Below, piece after piece: positions 5,234-24,752 of a stretch of 35,751 nt of DNA. Within the stretch, counting starts at the first letter, position 1; every line of letters starts with the position of its first letter. Source of the DNA: a virus; the IMG/VR virus record IMGVR_UViG_3300034072_002220, positions 1-35,751 of that record; one strand, written 5' to 3'. The position numbers and the translations under genes are program-made. Below the pieces are notes generated by a model. The model was not told where the DNA came from. It saw nothing but the letters and a program-made list of their open reading frames with translations, and did not search any database.

Positions 5234-5679
5234 TATGGTTGTGTTTGAAGTTTAAGTTCGTTATAATAAGCTGTTAAAAAAGCTTCATTATCTGTCTCAA
5301 GAATATCCCTTATCACGCCCTGAGCATCCATTACTTTGTAATTAGATGCGGCGCGTTCCATACAACTGTAAAATAGACGTGCGCTTTGGTGCATAGGATA
5401 ATCGTTTCCTGAGAAAGTAAAGACAGCAGTATCAAGGCCATTTACTTTAGCCCTGTATTCATAAGCGGGCTGCTCGGCTAAATATTCTGCCTCATAAGCT
5501 GCCATCTCAGATTCACTTCGCTCTTCAAGTTGGCCATTAACTATCTTTAAAGGCGATACGCCAAACTGATTTTGCGGCATATCCTCTTCATCAATAACAA
5601 GCGGTGTGTCTTCACCGTCCCATGTTTGCCAAAACAAAAAGGGTTTATTTGGCAGTTCTGTTGCTATTAGTTTTCCCAT
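5233..5679 (-). CDS. Putative tail fibre assembly-type protein
   Basis: 148 residues, acidic, beta-rich at the N-terminus (PFLFWQTWDGEDTPLVIDEED) and helical at the C-terminus. The middle has a Glu/Ala-rich helix (SESEMAAYEAEYLAEQPAYEYRAKVNG), followed by a pattern in which a small protein describes a residue or value to be tested (YPMHQSARLFYSCMERAASNYKVMDAQGVIRDI). A small acidic protein between two fibre genes is the classic place for a fibre assembly chaperone, but no family is recognised with certainty. It overlaps the next gene by one base, suggesting coupled translation. Confidence 0.5.
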   Translation of the reverse strand: MGKLIATELPNKPFLFWQTWDGEDTPLVIDEEDMPQNQFGVSPLKIVNGQLEERSESEMAAYEAEYLAEQPAYEYRAKVNGLDTAVFTFSGNDYPMHQSARLFYSCMERAASNYKVMDAQGVIRDILETDNEAFLTAYYNELKLQTQP

Positions 5680-10878: not shown

Positions 10879-11874
10879 TTATATTTTCATTCCTAAAGTG
10901 TTGTCTCTCAAAAATCCGACTTCGCCGTTAAAGTCAATAGTTACGGCTTCTATTAAGTATTTGCCCTGCCTGTCGCTGTCAGGATAGTTAGGGTCAGTAA
11001 TTTCAACTCCGTCACCGGGTTGGGTTCTGGGCAGTCCCCAAGTGGGTATTTTGCCCCTGTAGCCGTCAAAGCTTAATGACTTATAAGTCTTTTCAGTAAG
11101 GTTTTTAAGCTCTTCAAAGCTTTTATTAGTGTAGTGCAGCGTTCTTATTGCACCGTTACGATCTCCGAAATCATACAGCAGCCTTTTGCCTTTTTTGTTG
11201 ATGGCTATGCCCCTGAACAGAATTTGCAAATCCTCTTTTTTTATGTACTTCAGGCTGTTATCTTCTTTAGCCCTTACATTACGGTTTATGTTAATCTGAT
11301 GCACCGTAATTGGTTTTACATCTATCATAAAGCCAACCGTTAAAACGCCATTCTTAAAGTAGCTATGCAGGCCGTAGCTGGTGCGCAGGTCTTCTAATAC
11401 TTTAAAAGCTGAAGCGTTTGAAATTATAAACTTGCCGAGGCTCACATTATCAATAATATTGTATTGGTAGCCCGGCGCTATGTACTTCAGCAGGTCAAGA
11501 AGCTTTAAACTTGCAAATGACTTTGTAAACTTGCTGCGCTTGAGCTGGTACATCATATCTTCGCACTCAATTTCAAGAGGAATGTCAGCCCCTATGGAGC
11601 TGACAAAACCGGAAAACTCCTCTTGATTGTCCCCGTCATAGCCTAAGCTTATACTGACAGGGTCGCCCACCTTTATAAAATCGGTAATGTTTTTCCGGGC
11701 AAATGAGTCAACACTCCCGTTGTACATTATCGAACTAAACTCACGTGGTACGATTATTTTAGCCTTATCAGATAGCTGCTTGATGCTTTTCTCTATCCTT
11801 ACAGCATTAACATTATTAAAGCTCACGTTGCCAATAGTAATATGGCAGGTCATGTTAAAATACAGATAGTACAT
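10879..11874 (-). CDS. Tail hub protein (gp44/gpD-like)
   Basis: 331 residues in the position of Mu gp44, the hub at the baseplate centre. Beta-rich N-terminus with TCHITIGNVSFNNVNAVRIEKSIKQLSDKAKI and a typical FSGFVSSIGAD loop, later KLLDLLKYIAPGY and PGDGVEITDPNYPDSDRQGKYLIEAVTIDF, as in late-control/hub proteins. The ATG at 11874 overlaps the upstream stop (TGATG), but an internal ATG at residue 8 is an alternative start. It lies between the DUF6046-like gene and the lysis genes. Confidence 0.7.
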   Translation of the reverse strand: MYYLYFNMTCHITIGNVSFNNVNAVRIEKSIKQLSDKAKIIVPREFSSIMYNGSVDSFARKNITDFIKVGDPVSISLGYDGDNQEEFSGFVSSIGADIPLEIECEDMMYQLKRSKFTKSFASLKLLDLLKYIAPGYQYNIIDNVSLGKFIISNASAFKVLEDLRTSYGLHSYFKNGVLTVGFMIDVKPITVHQININRNVRAKEDNSLKYIKKEDLQILFRGIAINKKGKRLLYDFGDRNGAIRTLHYTNKSFEELKNLTEKTYKSLSFDGYRGKIPTWGLPRTQPGDGVEITDPNYPDSDRQGKYLIEAVTIDFNGEVGFLRDNTLGMKI

Positions 11875-12464
11875 CAGGCATTTGGATTTATAAGGGTAAA
11901 GGCTACCGGGGCAATACTGCGCGCAATAAGCGTGTACTGTATTGTGTCCGCATAACCCTGAACCGGGTTAAACTCTATGCCAGTGAAATACACTGTTTTT
12001 ATATCCTTATCAAAGAACTGGGTGCCTACAACATCAACTACATTGTTGTACCTGAAGAGGCTGTAAAGCTGCTTTACCAAGCTTTCAGGATAGGTGCGGT
12101 TAACAATATCTACCAGCACACCGCGCAGGCGAATTTCAAAGGGCTTGGTTCCCCATCGTTCCACAACCACGTTATCAGTGCCGTTAATATCCGTTTCAAT
12201 AAGAGCTTTATCCTGAATGCAGTTGATAATTGGCGGTGGTGCCAGCAGGCCGTTAAACTCAGTGGCAAGCAGCATATCGCCGAACCTTACCGTTTGGCCA
12301 TTAAAGCTGAACTCAACATTTTCAAAGTCGCCTTCAGTATCCGGGTATGTCACAAGGTTGTATTCCCGGTTAACCATAGCTTTAGATGGTATATTAGTGC
12401 TGGCAACAAACCCGAAGGCGGCGGCATATCTGCCTGCAAGTGATATTATAATCTCGTTTGTCAT
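11874..12464 (-). CDS. DUF6046-like tail protein (Mu gp43-like position)
   Basis: 196 residues, similar to a Bacteroidota phage tail family with a beta-rich core (QTVRFGDMLLATEFNGLLAPPPIINCIQDKALIETD) and a repeated RLRGVLVDI..YP..LVKQLYSLF element that resembles DNA-circularisation or LysM-type tail proteins. The family name is from memory and moderately sure. Its ATG overlaps by 4 bp (ATGA) the stop of the frameshifted chaperone extension, showing that the region between it and the chaperone is coding. Confidence 0.6.
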   Translation of the reverse strand: MTNEIIISLAGRYAAAFGFVASTNIPSKAMVNREYNLVTYPDTEGDFENVEFSFNGQTVRFGDMLLATEFNGLLAPPPIINCIQDKALIETDINGTDNVVVERWGTKPFEIRLRGVLVDIVNRTYPESLVKQLYSLFRYNNVVDVVGTQFFDKDIKTVYFTGIEFNPVQGYADTIQYTLIARSIAPVAFTLINPNA

Positions 12465-13014
12465 AGCCCCAGTTCCTTAAAGTTGCCTAAAACGCCTATC
12501 TCTGCTAAATACTTAACCTGCGCCCATTTTTCAGCCCAAGTGGTATCATCAAGCTCTTCAGGAAAAGGGATGTGCAGGAAGTGAGATATAAGAGCGTTAA
12601 TTTTAAAAATGTTGTCTTTACCCTGACTGAAGTGAAGCCCACTACAGTCTTCTAAAACTTTTTTACCCTGCCGTCCCTTATTGGAATAAGCTCAGCTAAT
12701 AGCGACACGGTGGTCATGAAAAGCGCGTCATCAGCAAGTATGGTTTCAAGCTCACTCTTAACGCACTGTTTAACTAAAATCTCCTGGGCTTTTTTCGGGT
12801 TTACATCAATGTACTTCATGTACTGCCCAAGCGTAGCCCTGTCAGGAACTATCGCTACAACCTCTATGTATTCGGCTGTGTCATCAGTTGTAGGAACTTC
12901 AAGAAGTCGCAGGTTCTTAGAACCGTAAGTCTGAATAAAGGCTTCCCTTTGTTCTGTTGATATTGGGGCTGTTTTACAAAGCCCGGATTCTTTTATTTCT
13001 TTTTTATCTGCCAT
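12461..13014 (-). CDS. Tail-assembly chaperone, -1 frameshift form (gpGT analogue)
   Basis: Not a single ORF: the first 119 residues are the short form, then a -1 shift on A AAA AAG (12664 down to 12658) moves the ribosome into an open frame of 65 codons ending at TGA 12463-12461, giving about 184 residues. The extension begins VLEDCSGLHF and ends GNFKELGL; it is Trp/Lys/Ile-rich and helical (TWAEKWAQVKYLAEIG). The shift site is a classic efficient heptamer, as in lambda G-T, and the stop overlaps the next gene's ATG (ATGA). Codon-frame arithmetic from the heptamer to the stop is consistent (195 nt, no stop in frame). The region otherwise looks like a gene-free gap of 190 bp. Confidence 0.85.
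12652..13014 (-). CDS. Tail-assembly chaperone, short form (gpG analogue)
   Basis: 120 residues. It directly follows the tube gene and holds the position of lambda gpG and Mu gp41-type chaperones, which bind the tape measure before tube polymerisation. The sequence is acidic to neutral, with no motif beyond a helical central segment (ATLGQYMKYIDVNPKKAQEILVKQCV). At its 3' end it contains the slippery heptamer A AAA AAG, just before RVKKF and the TAG stop, so a second longer form is made (listed separately). The usual neighbour, the tape measure, is far away on the other strand. Confidence 0.8.
   Translation of the reverse strand: MADKKEIKESGLCKTAPISTEQREAFIQTYGSKNLRLLEVPTTDDTAEYIEVVAIVPDRATLGQYMKYIDVNPKKAQEILVKQCVKSELETILADDALFMTTVSLLAELIPIRDGRVKKF
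12658..12664 (-). promoter_or_regulatory. -1 ribosomal frameshift site A AAA AAG
   Basis: Read on the minus strand, the codons ...GTA AAA AAG TTT TAG... can re-pair as AAA AAA in the -1 frame. The 0-frame stop follows one codon later. No pseudoknot has been modelled; some such sites work without a stimulator. Confidence 0.85.
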
Positions 13015-13016
13015 GA

Positions 13017-13433
13017 TTAAATTGGGTTATTAAATTTTATATCTAAAACAAACAGGGTGTATTGTTTATTCAAGCCCATGTCGCCTGTTACTTCACGGCC
13101 TTGATTTTGGAACTTAGCGACAATAGTATCATTTACCGGAACATTATATTCGTTAACAAAAGTTACGTTAATGTCAAAGGGGCGCAGCTTAAGCAAGTCG
13201 CCGCCTGCGGCCTGCTCTATGGGTGTAATATCATGCATCATCACCGTCATGGTTGCAGTCGGCGTAATTTTGCCCATTGACCAGCTATTAGCCTTGTTTT
13301 TAAGAGTGTGGTTAAGCTGGTGTTCCTGCTCTGTATCGTAGTTGATTTCTACCACATCCAGCATTACGCCGTTAATGGTTACATCCACATCGCCACTGTC
13401 ATAGGCTTTTTTGTTTCTAATTACTGTACTCAT
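13017..13433 (-). CDS. Tail tube protein
   Basis: 138 residues, immediately before the chaperone gene and after the sheath gene. It begins STVIRNKKAYDSGDVDVTINGVMLDVVEINYDTEQEHQLNHTL and continues as a beta-sandwich with a KITPTATMTVMMHDITPIEQAAGG loop, the pattern of Mu gp40/FII-type tube proteins in Bacteroidota phages. Tube and sheath make up the contractile tail. It starts one base from the sheath stop. The role follows from position and the fold pattern; sequence identity to Mu gp40 is not obvious. Confidence 0.75.
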   Translation of the reverse strand: MSTVIRNKKAYDSGDVDVTINGVMLDVVEINYDTEQEHQLNHTLKNKANSWSMGKITPTATMTVMMHDITPIEQAAGGDLLKLRPFDINVTFVNEYNVPVNDTIVAKFQNQGREVTGDMGLNKQYTLFVLDIKFNNPI

Positions 13434-14680
13434 TATAACCGGTTTTTGATGTTTGATGTTCCGCGTATTTCGCCAATAGTGCCATAAGGAACTATAACGT
13501 AAGAGGTTTTTAGTACTTTCTCTACAACAAGGTCGCTTTCAGGGTCAACAAAGGTTTCACCGCCTGAAATCTCATTCCTGCGCTGCATCTCTGCAAAGAC
13601 ACCGTTGCCTATATCTTTAAAGTACTGCTGTACACCAATTGGCAGTTTTCCTGTTGCCGGGTCAACCGGGTAGGTTTTCTTAACCTTTGGCAGCAGGGCG
13701 GTTCTAAGAAGCCTTATTGCTTTGTCGTGTGTACGGCCATAGGCAATGGTATGCTCGTTAATATTGCCCTGAGCATCAAGTATAATCTCTGTACAGGTGT
13801 GGTCACCGTTCCATCGCACGCCCTCAAGGCCAGCATATTCATAACCGAATATGTAACCTTTGTTCTCAAGCGTCTGAAGGTCTGAGAATACATCTTCATT
13901 CTTTTGGTGTGAAGAAATGCCCGGCTCAAGCCATGCATCAACTGTAGCATCGGTAAGGTTAAAGACTTCATTGTCGCCTATGTTCTGCTCAACGGTTGCA
14001 GCGGCCACGGTTCCGAGTGCGGTACCTACATCGGCAAATTTTTGAGCCGCACCAGTTTTAGTGTCGGCATAGTTATAATCCTGCCCTATAAATACGCTTA
14101 CTTTCGGGGCTTTAACGTTCTCTATTGCCCTTAAATCTGCCGCTGAGGCAGCAGGACCCGAATAGGCATAACCTTCTAAAAGTACCTGGCACGGGAAGTG
14201 GTTTTCAAATGCCCAGTCAGCCAAGCCCTGCGCTTTTGGTATTGCATTGTAAACATCAGTCGGAAGCCCGTTAAGGCTTACCACAGCAGCTGTATTGTTT
14301 ACGGCCACTGCCAACTGGCGTACTTCACCCTTTGCGGCTACAAGAAGCTTTTTAGCATATTGCTCTTCAGCATCTTCTAATATCTCTACCATTGTGGTAG
14401 CTGCCGGAACCAGCATAACGTAAAGCTTTTGCCCTTCGCCGCCCATCCTGTAGAACTCAGTCAGGTGGCGCGTAGCATTCACGTTGTTATCTGTATCAAA
14501 GGCTTCAGTAAACCCGGCAGATGCTACATCTACCGAGTTGAACAATGTTTTAATTTCACCATGCGCGGTATTGGCAGTGGCAGCGCAGGCAATTATTATT
14601 GCCGAAATGCCGTCACCTAAGCTAAGGGTGTTAGCCCCGGTTCTGCCTCTTGTTATTGTTACTGCGTTTAAATTTGCCAT
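13433..14680 (-). CDS. Contractile tail sheath protein (DUF2586-type)
   Basis: 415 residues with the usual sheath layout: variable N-terminal and middle domains (AVTITRGRTGANTLSLGDGISAIIIACAA) and the conserved C-terminal domain with a polar handle (HDKAIRLLRTALLPKVKKTYPVDPATGKLPIGVQQYFKDIGNGVFAEMQRRNEISGGETFVDPE), ending in a beta strand with PYGTIGEIRG. It makes the phage a myovirus. Two overlapping open frames on the other strands are shadows. It lies upstream of the tube gene, as in Mu. Confidence 0.8.
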   Translation of the reverse strand: MANLNAVTITRGRTGANTLSLGDGISAIIIACAATANTAHGEIKTLFNSVDVASAGFTEAFDTDNNVNATRHLTEFYRMGGEGQKLYVMLVPAATTMVEILEDAEEQYAKKLLVAAKGEVRQLAVAVNNTAAVVSLNGLPTDVYNAIPKAQGLADWAFENHFPCQVLLEGYAYSGPAASAADLRAIENVKAPKVSVFIGQDYNYADTKTGAAQKFADVGTALGTVAAATVEQNIGDNEVFNLTDATVDAWLEPGISSHQKNEDVFSDLQTLENKGYIFGYEYAGLEGVRWNGDHTCTEIILDAQGNINEHTIAYGRTHDKAIRLLRTALLPKVKKTYPVDPATGKLPIGVQQYFKDIGNGVFAEMQRRNEISGGETFVDPESDLVVEKVLKTSYVIVPYGTIGEIRGTSNIKNRL

Positions 14681-19977: not shown

Positions 19978-22524
19978 ATGAATATACTCGGAATGAAATT
20001 ACCTTCTTTTAGGCGCGCCCAAAACAAACCGGAGCAAACAGCCGTAACCAGCCCTGCCGCCGCAGCTGCCAGCAGGCCAAATTCGCGTGAACGGATAAGC
20101 CCGGCTGATAAACGCATAATTGATGCGATTGTAAAACAATATGCAGACAGGAGCCGTAAGGATATACAGAAATGGCGAACCGCTATCAAAATGGCTGAGC
20201 ATCCTGAAAAGCCACGCATGAACCAGCTGCATGACCTGTACAACGACTTAAAGACTGACGGGCATTACAAGTCGCTAATCCGGTTACGGAAATATGCCTC
20301 ACTTAACACGGCCTTCACCATAACGGATGGAGACGGTGAAGTGAATGAAGAGGCAACAAGCTTTTTTAACAAGGCTTGGTTTTATAAGTTTATCAGCAAC
20401 GCAATGGATAGTATCTTTTACGGTACAACGCTTGTAGAGCTGCTGATGGTAAAAGATAAAAAAGCCGACTTTAAAGTTATACCGCGCCGCAATGTAATTC
20501 CGCAGCTTAAGGCTGTTTTACCTGATGTGACTAAGGATGATTACATCAATTACGCCGACCCGTATTATGAGAACTGGCTTATAGAGGTTACAGATGAAGA
20601 GACTGAACTTGGCCTGATGAACGATATAGTGCCTAACCTGATATGGAAAAGGAACGTGGCGCAGTCGTGGGCTGAGTTTTGTGAAAAGTTTGGCATGCCG
20701 CTTATAACGGCCACCACAAACTCAAACGACCCGAAAACAATTGACAGGGTTAATGATATGCTTTTCCAACTGGGTGAAGCTTCGCTTGCTGTTTTTCCGC
20801 AGGGTACAACTATTGAGTTTAAAGAAAGCAACCGTACTGATGCCTTCAGGGTGTACAGTGAGTTCATTAAGACCTGTAAAAGCGAAATAGCCACGGCCAT
20901 AGTGGGTGGCGATATGATAATAGAGAATGGATCATCACGCAGCCAAAGTGAAGTACATGAGCGCAACCTTGATGATAAGATTGCCGTTGCAGATAAACGC
21001 TTTATTAAATTCTTAGTAGATGACCAGCTTATTCCGTTGCTTATAAGGCAGGGCGTAAACGTGCTTAAAGAGGGCGATGTTTTAGAGTTTGACCAAAGCC
21101 ACAATCTTGAGCTTGACAAGTTTTGGGATATCGTTAGCGGTATGCTTGACAAGGGTTATGAGCCGGATATGGATTGGCTGGCCAAAACCTTCAGCGTTCC
21201 GCTGGTGGGTAAAAAAAAAACTTTCGAGCCAACAGCCTACCAGCCGATAATGAGCAGCCTTAACCTTCCTGAATACCCGCAGGCCTGTTGCAGCGGCCAT
21301 ATACAAGCCGCTGGCAGCTTAGCGCGCAAACGGCTTCAGGAGTTTCAGGATAAGCTCCTGCAGGAGCTATGGGACAACAAAGATACCCTGAGCAGTGAAG
21401 CGCAGCTTACCATAACTGAAGGGCTTGAACTTGTAAAGGGATTGCATAACGGTTGGGGCAGGCGGCGCACTGAGGCAGCTTGGAACGCGCCCGACCATTT
21501 AGCCCTGAGCATGATGGAATACAACCTGTTTGAATTTGCCGAGTCGAAAACTGAAGCAAGGCTGGCTACATTTTCGGAATTGCTTATTAATAAAGACAAA
21601 GCACAGATAAGAAGCTTTGAAGAGTTTAAACGTGAAGCTTCGCGCATAACTGAAAACTTTAACGGTACCTGGCTCGAAACTGAATACAACCTGTCCGTTG
21701 CTACCGGGCAAACTTCAGCGGCCTATTTACGCGCTATGGCCGATAAAGATACGGTTACATCATTTGTGCAATATCAAACGGCGGGTGATAGCAAGGTGCG
21801 CCCGGAACATGCCGCGCTTAACGGTAAGATATTTTCACTTGATGACAAAGAAGCAATGAAGCTGTGGCCGCCAAACAGCTACAATTGCAGGTGTGAAATG
21901 GTACAGTACACTGGAAGGACTGAAGGCAAAGTAACATCCGGCAATGCAGCGCGCAAACTGTTGGGTGAAAAGTTTGAAGGTTCTAAGTTCGACCTGAACC
22001 GGGGCGACCTGAAGGCCGTGTTTACCAAAGCACAGCAATACGCTGATGCCAACGGTAAGAAAATAGAAAAGATGGACTTTGAGGTGTATAACCTTGAGCC
22101 GTTTTCTAAAATGAAAGGTTTGGAAAAAGCACGGCTTGACAGCTCTATCACACCGGATAACGTGAAGGAACTCTTTAAAGAGAATGCAGGGGTTAATTTA
22201 ATGGGCTTTGAAGACTATTTAAACAGAAAGATGGTGATGACTAAGAAGAGCTTCAACACCCACACCAAAGGCAAATATGTAACGGAATCTGAAAACAGGC
22301 ACCAGCTTTTTGCGCTGGTTAAAGATGTACTGCTGTCGCCTGATGAAGTTTGGCTGAAGCCAAAGCAAAAGCAAACTTTTTACCTGCGGTATTATGACGG
22401 GTTTGCAATGGCCGTCCCTGTTAATATAACCAACATCCGCACCGAAATTGGAACATGGTTTAAAGTAAAAGCTGATGAAAAAGAAATAAGAAGCGGGCTT
22501 TTAATACACAAAAAAAAGCCTTAA
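19978..22524 (+). CDS. Portal (DUF935) fused to MuF and a C-terminal nuclease-like toxin domain
   Basis: 848 residues, too long for one Mu gp29 or gp30. Residues 1 to about 430 are a DUF935 portal (NAMDSIFYGTTLVELLMVKDKKADFKVIPRRNVIP, ENGSSRSQSEVHERNLDDKIAVADKRFIKFLVDDQLIPLLI). About 480-640 are a MuF head-morphogenesis domain, ending with VRPEHAALNGKIF and WPPNSYNCRCEM. The last 80 residues, from about 768, carry a block (LFALVKDVLLSPDEVWLKPKQKQTFYLRYYDGFAMAVPV, later EKEIRSGLLIHKK) that resembles the PBECR2-type BECR-fold nuclease toxins known at MuF C-termini. Catalytic residues cannot be assigned safely. It would ride in the virion and could act on the host after injection. Confidence 0.85.
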   Translation: MNILGMKLPSFRRAQNKPEQTAVTSPAAAAASRPNSRERISPADKRIIDAIVKQYADRSRKDIQKWRTAIKMAEHPEKPRMNQLHDLYNDLKTDGHYKSLIRLRKYASLNTAFTITDGDGEVNEEATSFFNKAWFYKFISNAMDSIFYGTTLVELLMVKDKKADFKVIPRRNVIPQLKAVLPDVTKDDYINYADPYYENWLIEVTDEETELGLMNDIVPNLIWKRNVAQSWAEFCEKFGMPLITATTNSNDPKTIDRVNDMLFQLGEASLAVFPQGTTIEFKESNRTDAFRVYSEFIKTCKSEIATAIVGGDMIIENGSSRSQSEVHERNLDDKIAVADKRFIKFLVDDQLIPLLIRQGVNVLKEGDVLEFDQSHNLELDKFWDIVSGMLDKGYEPDMDWLAKTFSVPLVGKKKTFEPTAYQPIMSSLNLPEYPQACCSGHIQAAGSLARKRLQEFQDKLLQELWDNKDTLSSEAQLTITEGLELVKGLHNGWGRRRTEAAWNAPDHLALSMMEYNLFEFAESKTEARLATFSELLINKDKAQIRSFEEFKREASRITENFNGTWLETEYNLSVATGQTSAAYLRAMADKDTVTSFVQYQTAGDSKVRPEHAALNGKIFSLDDKEAMKLWPPNSYNCRCEMVQYTGRTEGKVTSGNAARKLLGEKFEGSKFDLNRGDLKAVFTKAQQYADANGKKIEKMDFEVYNLEPFSKMKGLEKARLDSSITPDNVKELFKENAGVNLMGFEDYLNRKMVMTKKSFNTHTKGKYVTESENRHQLFALVKDVLLSPDEVWLKPKQKQTFYLRYYDGFAMAVPVNITNIRTEIGTWFKVKADEKEIRSGLLIHKKKP

Positions 22525-22631: not shown

Positions 22632-24752
22632 ATGAGTGCAAAAAGTAAATTAGAACTATTGATGGAGCTTAAGAACAAGCTCTTCAATTCAAAGCTACGG
22701 GACAGTACTGAGAAACTGAACAGGGGGGTTCGTAAAATGAAATTCGACCTTGCAAGCCTCAGAACCGCATCGCTTAAGACCTTCAGGGCTATGGCTGCTG
22801 AAGTACCCATTTTCGGGCGCGCTATGGAGTTGCTGGGCAATCCTTACGTTTTGGTTGCCGCAGGGCTTATTGCCGTAACCGGGCTTTTTTATAAGGCCAC
22901 AAACGAGGCGGCAAAGTTTAACAGTGAGTTCCTGAATGTCCGGCAGCTTAACCTTGACAAAAGCGAAAAGCAGCTTACTTCTTATAAAGAGCTTATCCGG
23001 GACAGTGCCTTTGAAACAGGCAAAAGCGCCATTGACACTACTAAGGCTTACTATGATATTCAGTCAGCACTTGGCTTTTACGGCAACGAGGCTAAAAAGG
23101 TTTTTACTGAAGTAGCCAACTACAGCACAGCCACCGGGGCAGACCTGAATGAATCTATTAACGCAACCACTAAGGCCATTAAGGCATTCGGGTTACGGGC
23201 TGAAGATACAAGGCGGCTGCTTGAAAGTAATGCCAAAACAGTGCAGGTAGGTATAACCACCTTTAAGGAACTGGCTGTAGTGCAAACAGAGTATGCAGGC
23301 GCGGCTAAGGGCGCGGGGCAAAGTGTTGATGTGGCCAATAAGATATTTGCCGGGTTTACTTCAATAGCCAAAGGCAGTGCCGAAGCCGCTACTATGACTA
23401 AAACGGCCTTTCAGGGGCTTACTCAGGAATCGACAGTTAAAGGGTTAAAATCAATCGGGGTTAGCCTGTATGATAACAAAGGGCAAATGCGCGACCTAAG
23501 CAAAGTGCTAACTGAGGTTGACAGCAAATTTAAGCGCATGAGTCCTAAACAGATTGATGAGCTTATTAATAAGATAGGTGGCCCGGAAGGTTTGAGGGCG
23601 TTGCTTACCAAACTAAAGACAGGTGCTGATGACCTTTTTGCAACCTTTGACGCTTTTGATGCCTCAAGCTTTAGCCTTGATGAAGCATTGCGCAATGCAA
23701 AAGGCGATGTTACCATCCTGAGCGGTATTGTGCGTAACAAGTTTAACACGGTAATGGCAAAACTGGGCGAAAAGATACTGCCGCAGGTAGCAAAGGGGCT
23801 TGAGTGGCTTGATAAGGTAATGGATAAGGTATATAAGAACTTAGACACTATCCTGCTGCTGGTACGCAAAGCTGTAATAGCCTTTACCACTTTTAAAGTA
23901 ACTAATATGATGGTGGCCTCTTCAGTGGGTAAAATAGCCGTTGCCTTTAAAGGTGGTCTTGCAAATGGCATTGGCGCGGCCACAACTGCAATGAAAGGTT
24001 TTAACGCAGCTTTTAAAGCTAATTTAATAGGGCTTGTTACTTCGCTCATTATTACCCTTGCCAGCAGCATTGACGACCTTATCGGGAACAGTGAAAGGCT
24101 GCAAAAGCTGATAGAAAAAGAAAGGGGCTTTGATGAGCAGAACAACAACCTGCTAAAAGGCACTAAGCTTGACCTTGCAAAGTCTAATTTAGGCAGCTTA
24201 ACAAAAAGCCAGGCAGCAGATATACAAGAAGCAGCTAAGCAAAGGTTAAGGGATATTGAAACAGCTACATCAACACTAAGGGCAAGGTTGTCAGATGCGT
24301 CAGACCCCGAAGTACAAAAATTGAGAAACCTTCAAAATGAAGTTAATGCTTTAAGAAAGGACAATAAAAATACTCCTTTTGCAAAAAAAGAGTTAGAAAC
24401 TAAACAGTGGCAGCTTGACAGACAGACACGGGAACTATCAGGTGGTTATACAGGTACTGCTATGACCGAGATGTACCAGAAAAACAGGCAGATACTTGAG
24501 AACCTTAAGAACCGAAAATTAGTTAGCGATGAGGGTTCTGTTACAGGCGGCGCAGGCGGTGAGCAGGTAACAGCCGTTACCGACAGAGCATCGCAGCCCC
24601 GCAGCATAGTTATTAATATTGATTCCTTTAACAAAGGCGGCATTAACACCAGCACCACCACGCTGGCCAATAAGTCGCCTGAAGAAATAGAGGCATGGTT
24701 TACCGAGGCAATGATGAGAGTAGTAAGAGGTGTAGAACTGAGCTATGAGTAA
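22632..24752 (+). CDS. Tail tape measure protein
   Basis: 706 residues, of TP901-like type: an N-terminal coiled region (KLELLMELKNKLFNSKLRDSTEKLNRGVRK), one hydrophobic segment (about 69-88, GNPYVLVAAGLIAVTGLFYK), the typical phage tape-measure block (NLDKSEKQLTSYKELIRDSAFETGKSAIDTTKAYYDIQSALGFYG, then VANYSTATGADLNESINATTKAIKAFGL), a second hydrophobic area near 470-485 and a helical C-terminus. Known tape measures predict about 1.5 angstrom per residue, so a tail near 105 nm. Its gene is here in the plus-strand head operon, not after the chaperone as in Mu. The start follows a very A+T-rich leader. Confidence 0.85.
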   Translation: MSAKSKLELLMELKNKLFNSKLRDSTEKLNRGVRKMKFDLASLRTASLKTFRAMAAEVPIFGRAMELLGNPYVLVAAGLIAVTGLFYKATNEAAKFNSEFLNVRQLNLDKSEKQLTSYKELIRDSAFETGKSAIDTTKAYYDIQSALGFYGNEAKKVFTEVANYSTATGADLNESINATTKAIKAFGLRAEDTRRLLESNAKTVQVGITTFKELAVVQTEYAGAAKGAGQSVDVANKIFAGFTSIAKGSAEAATMTKTAFQGLTQESTVKGLKSIGVSLYDNKGQMRDLSKVLTEVDSKFKRMSPKQIDELINKIGGPEGLRALLTKLKTGADDLFATFDAFDASSFSLDEALRNAKGDVTILSGIVRNKFNTVMAKLGEKILPQVAKGLEWLDKVMDKVYKNLDTILLLVRKAVIAFTTFKVTNMMVASSVGKIAVAFKGGLANGIGAATTAMKGFNAAFKANLIGLVTSLIITLASSIDDLIGNSERLQKLIEKERGFDEQNNNLLKGTKLDLAKSNLGSLTKSQAADIQEAAKQRLRDIETATSTLRARLSDASDPEVQKLRNLQNEVNALRKDNKNTPFAKKELETKQWQLDRQTRELSGGYTGTAMTEMYQKNRQILENLKNRKLVSDEGSVTGGAGGEQVTAVTDRASQPRSIVINIDSFNKGGINTSTTTLANKSPEEIEAWFTEAMMRVVRGVELSYE

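Follow-up and report, generated by a model that had tools for sequence, protein, structure and literature searches.

A putative lambda G/GT-type tail-assembly chaperone pair with a conserved -1 frame extension in Bacteroidota phages

We analyzed a viral DNA stretch of 35,751 nt (IMG/VR record IMGVR_UViG_3300034072_002220), referred to here as the window, and found that, judged from its sequence and that of its relatives, it very probably encodes a lambda G/GT-type tail-assembly chaperone pair, the long form of which would arise by -1 slippage at the heptamer A AAA AAG. The original prediction had described a 65-codon frame without a start of its own, running from such a heptamer at the end of the chaperone gene to a TGA that overlaps the next ATG, and all of these elements were indeed present, on the minus strand, which the prediction had not named (Table 1). 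The zero-frame codons at the 3' end of the chaperone gene read GTA AAA AAG TTT TAG, which places the heptamer in the correct X XXY YYZ phase. The two called frames are separated by 187 nt (12651-12465), and the extension peptide, VLEDCSGLHF...NFKELGL, ends at a TGA (12463-12461) that overlaps the ATG (12464-12462) of the following gene in the form ATGA. The predicted fusion product comprises 184 aa.

Table 1. Positions in the window of the chaperone locus and of the tail genes discussed in the text
Feature	Position	Strand	Basis
Tail-assembly chaperone (predicted), short form (G-like), 120 aa, C-terminus RVKKF followed by the stop	13014-12652	-	Open reading frame, gene order after tube/sheath, model match
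Slippery heptamer A AAA AAG, one codon ahead of the zero-frame TAG (12654-12652)	12664-12658	-	Phase checked
Predicted 65-residue extension in the -1 frame (T-like domain), translated after the slip	12464..12658	-	Conserved in 42 loci, third-position excess, model
Candidate stimulatory hairpin GACTG-T-AGTG-GGCTT-CACT-T-CAGTC	12625..12649	-	Folding energy -11.3 kcal/mol
DUF6046 protein (baseplate-hub-like), gene after the extension	11874..12464	-	Pfam PF19512, E 1e-31; PHROG 5233 baseplate hub
Tail tube-like protein, gene between sheath and chaperone	13017..13433	-	PHROG 4579 tail protein, E 6.6e-9
Tail sheath (DUF2586)	13433..14680	-	Pfam PF10758, E 4.4e-33; PHROG 907 tail sheath
Tape-measure protein, divergent operon	22632..24752	+	14 PHROG tape-measure matches, best E 1.2e-34

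Taken alone, this locus is only suggestive of frameshifting, since 1.2% of the shuffles of the gap also left 65 codons open, and slippery heptamers of the types searched stand in the correct phase at ∼0.3% of codons in the genes of the window phage. The case becomes firm because both the extension and the slip site are conserved across relatives. Scans with single sequences recovered few of these, and scanning with an alignment of the fusion recovered 34 loci (18 from genomes and 16 from viral sequences). Together with 7 loci from phage records and from an earlier scan, and with the window itself, this gave 42 loci from Bacteroidota phages and prophages, 36 of them distinct with the window counted. 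At all 42, the extension was shifted by -1 from the chaperone frame, contained none of the stop codons that, according to the original prediction, would have refuted it, and was preceded by a slip site no more than 12 nt from the zero-frame stop. The distance from the last upstream -1 stop to the zero-frame stop was often just 13 to 22 nt, with the slip site falling inside it every time. Since the -1 stop bounds one side of this short stretch and the zero-frame stop the other, the frame change is confined to it.

The slip sites themselves were A AAA AAG (18 of the 36 distinct loci), G GGA AAG (12), A AAA AAC (4), and G GAA AAG (2). The expectation that the heptamer would be conserved in homologues thus held in that one of the first three types was found in phase, but it did not hold for two Empedobacter loci, which have G GAA AAG alone. 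These two prophages (L019 and L027) are the sole loci lacking a canonical heptamer; they read GTG GAA AAG TAT/TAC TAA, where apparently only an A AAG slip is possible, and their extension is conserved regardless. The codon before the slip ended in A at all 22 distinct sites of the A6 type (20 Val/Ile and 2 Leu codons), compared with 30% of the Val/Ile codons in the remainder of these genes. As related sequences are not independent, we regard this bias as no more than supporting evidence for a frameshift.

The extension also appeared to be maintained as protein. In pairwise comparisons, differences between extensions were concentrated at the third positions of the -1 frame; between the window and locus L013, for instance, we counted 15, 8, and 36 differences at positions 1, 2, and 3, respectively, corresponding to a pN of 0.17 and a pS of 0.87. 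In most of the pairs compared, pN was lower for the extension than for the chaperone. By this pattern of substitution, purifying selection acts on the extension in its -1 frame. A rival explanation is a sequencing error, or the decay of what had once been a single gene broken by an indel, and nothing specific speaks for it. We consider its probability to be negligible, as the homologues refute it: 42 loci, among them cultured phages and genome assemblies, have the identical frame change in the identical position, and selection is maintained on both halves.

Another explanation is that the extension is a small gene in its own right, translated by reinitiation or from a nonstandard start past the chaperone stop. 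Two deposited records, those of the phages fF4 and lotta8-1, do call part of the extension in this way, from an internal start. However, from the heptamer to the stop, the -1 frame of the window lacks ATG, GTG, and TTG codons alike, the conserved sequence (LEDCxGL) starts at the slip site itself, upstream of any internal ATG, and the phase relative to the chaperone is invariably -1 with the slip site retained. A separate gene therefore seems quite improbable. Even less credible to us is slippage of RNA polymerase, rather than of the ribosome, as the event that unites both frames. The site in the window is a run of six A residues, but such a run is short for polymerase slippage, and many of the relatives use G GGA AAG, which contains no long homopolymer.

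In the favored reading, that of ribosomal frameshifting, most ribosomes would terminate at the TAG and release the 120-aa short form. A minority, we infer, would slip by -1 at A AAA AAG, with the tRNA-Lys(UUU) molecules in the P and A sites re-pairing from AAA AAG to AAA AAA, and would continue in the -1 frame to yield the 184-aa form with its 65-aa helical C-terminal domain. In E. coli, A AAA AAG is described as one of the most shift-prone sites, exceeding A AAA AAC in this respect, and AAA and AAG are both decoded there by one tRNA-Lys (PMC5009743). Consistently, a pattern search found tRNA-Lys(UUU) as the sole tRNA-Lys in 11 of 12 host genomes, a count to be read with the caveat that the search uses a consensus D-arm, so that divergent tRNAs may be missed, and that metagenome-assembled genomes (MAGs) are possibly incomplete. 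The exception was a Chitinophagaceae MAG with an additional CUU tRNA-Lys, the prophage of which has G GGA AAG as its slip site.

A hairpin that begins after an 8-nt spacer downstream of the heptamer in the window may aid the slip. Among 30-nt windows of the late operon, it ranks in the lowest 0.9% by folding energy, and its z score against synonymous recoding is -2.3. Over 35 related sequences, the downstream RNA was on average more stable than its synonymous recodings (mean z of -1.14), and about half of the loci showed no unusual downstream structure. The outer arms of the window hairpin are retained in loci L013 and L034 and are lost further out; in a Tenacibaculum-like group, the stem changes were one-sided only (G-U/G-C). 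We tried and rejected a universally conserved stimulatory hairpin, as the stems vary by subgroup. Strong stems (-18.2, -18.4, and -27.3 kcal/mol) are present at three of the four loci with A AAA AAC, and strong stems also occur at several of the G GGA AAG loci. The three A AAA AAC cases lie in L016 near position 5342, in L029 near 5285, and in L005 near 8015, and the fourth A AAA AAC locus, L035, lacks such a stem. Very strong hairpins right after this weaker heptamer in three of four loci suggest compensation. On these grounds, the hairpin is likely to act as a stimulator, though not a universal one.

The identification of the short form as a tail-assembly chaperone relies on structure as well as on position. 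It had no convincing family in Pfam, PHROGs, or NCBIfam, its sole match being PHROG 19076 of unknown function, and a sequence search of the PDB gave no match. A model built from 29 relatives reached a pLDDT of 83, and its top Foldseek matches were 3fgx, the HK97 tail-assembly chaperone 2ob9, and YqbN (3klu). In VIA-align, the model aligned with 3fgx with a Z score of 9.9 (rmsd 2.8, 91 residues aligned), with 2ob9 at Z 5.9 (rmsd 3.7, 81 residues, 14% sequence identity), and with 3klu at Z 5.8 (rmsd 4.3, 83 residues, 2% identity); the next best was 5ir0, an uncharacterized protein of a PICI-like element, at Z 4.5, and unrelated chains scored ∼2. Because the moderate scores for 2ob9 and 3klu combine with the place of the gene after sheath and tube and with the frameshift, we have good confidence in assigning the modeled short form to the tail-assembly chaperones of HK97 fold. 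This match, and the -1 frame open at all 42 loci, support the lambda G-T type of frameshift that had been proposed for the window.

Three of the loci (L005:7344-8021, L010:2990-3517, and L011:3023-3565) have a short form that resembles a tandem duplication of the chaperone domain, being 175 to 225 aa long with two similar halves and retaining the slip site where the second copy ends. The extension was modeled as a two-helix hairpin (pLDDT of 85), and its conserved core is HFLHIPFPExLxDxxWAxKWAQV. It had no convincing family in Pfam, PHROGs, or NCBIfam, and its model matched nothing significantly among viral predicted structures (best E of 0.13). In these sequence-family and viral-structure searches, no relation to a known T domain was detectable.

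The window phage does look like a contractile-tailed phage of Bacteroidota, with a DUF2586 sheath, and it is probably transposable, given rve and Mu-transposase C-terminal matches that stay under the Pfam cutoffs; its description as a Bacteroidota Mu-like phage is supported, with transposability being the less certain part. The tube-like protein between sheath and chaperone also matches PHROG 9206, labeled major head protein (E of 4e-13). DUF6046 follows directly 3' of the extension in 38 of the 42 loci, without exception within the family of the window, and starts between -20 and +10 nt from the extension stop. In lambda G-T type systems, the tape-measure gene usually follows immediately after the chaperone pair, an arrangement that is not mechanistically required. 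No tape-measure gene was found directly downstream of the chaperone pair in the window or in any of the eight related records tested; it was on the opposite strand in all nine, and in the window it comes after the portal and terminase genes in the plus-strand operon. The same strand carries an 848-aa gene (19978-22524) in which a portal is seemingly joined to a minor head/morphogenesis protein. This gene, too, ends in an in-phase A AAA AAG one codon ahead of its stop, and stops were present downstream of the heptamer in the one frame that was read.

We give an even chance to a broader reading, in which the G/GT pair and the tape-measure protein would be divided between two operons throughout a clade of Bacteroidota contractile-tailed phages. 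Three slip sites, interchangeable with one another, would determine the G:GT ratio in hosts with one kind of lysine tRNA, with strong hairpins offsetting the weaker A AAA AAC. Being made from opposite-strand operons, the chaperones would, according to this reading, have to find the tape-measure protein in trans. The separation of the chaperone gene from the tape-measure gene implies that close linkage of both is not obligatory. The three slip sites, with and without hairpins, also form a natural set for studying frameshifting in Bacteroidota.

Frameshifting by -1 in tail-assembly chaperones is described as widespread in PMC5009743, with reference to Xu et al. 2004. The present loci extend this conserved frameshift to a Bacteroidota phage family, the long form of which the public records read either omit or split: the extension is left as an unannotated gap in Winogradskyella phage Peternella_1 and Flavobacterium phage FPSV-S1, and it is partly called as a separate hypothetical gene in Flavobacterium phages fF4 and lotta8-1. 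A description of frameshifting in these phages was not found in the open-licence literature. The extension can now enter annotation as a joined gene.

Flavobacterium phage fF4 (MN850656) resembles the window in its chaperone (50% identity) and its -1 frame extension (60%), in having DUF6046 next, and in carrying the tape-measure gene on the opposite strand; it differs in its G GGA AAG site and was deposited with two separate hypothetical genes. Peternella_1, FPSV-S1, and lotta8-1 (Winoviridae) share the A AAA AAG at the gene end, followed by a -1 open frame of 61 to 85 codons. Unlike in the window, a long gene that is annotated as the tape measure or occupies the corresponding place lies directly downstream in these three phages, and the short forms of FPSV-S1 and lotta8-1 are longer (175 to 180 aa).

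In systems of the lambda G-T type, the two products are made at a set ratio that is needed for tail assembly, and the slip site of lambda itself is G GGA AAG, which relatives of the window phage also use. On the model of lambda, binding of the tape-measure protein would fall to the N-terminal part common to both forms, and the extension would serve to recruit the tube protein. As with gpG and gpGT, the locus combines a short chaperone with a rarer, C-terminally extended form, here predicted, from a -1 slip near the 3' end of the gene, and the chaperone is positioned after the tube gene. In contrast to gpG and gpGT, to which we found no sequence relation, the extension is followed by DUF6046, and the tape-measure gene is on the opposite strand. 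The chaperone and extension of the window thus form a new family within the known lambda G-T type.
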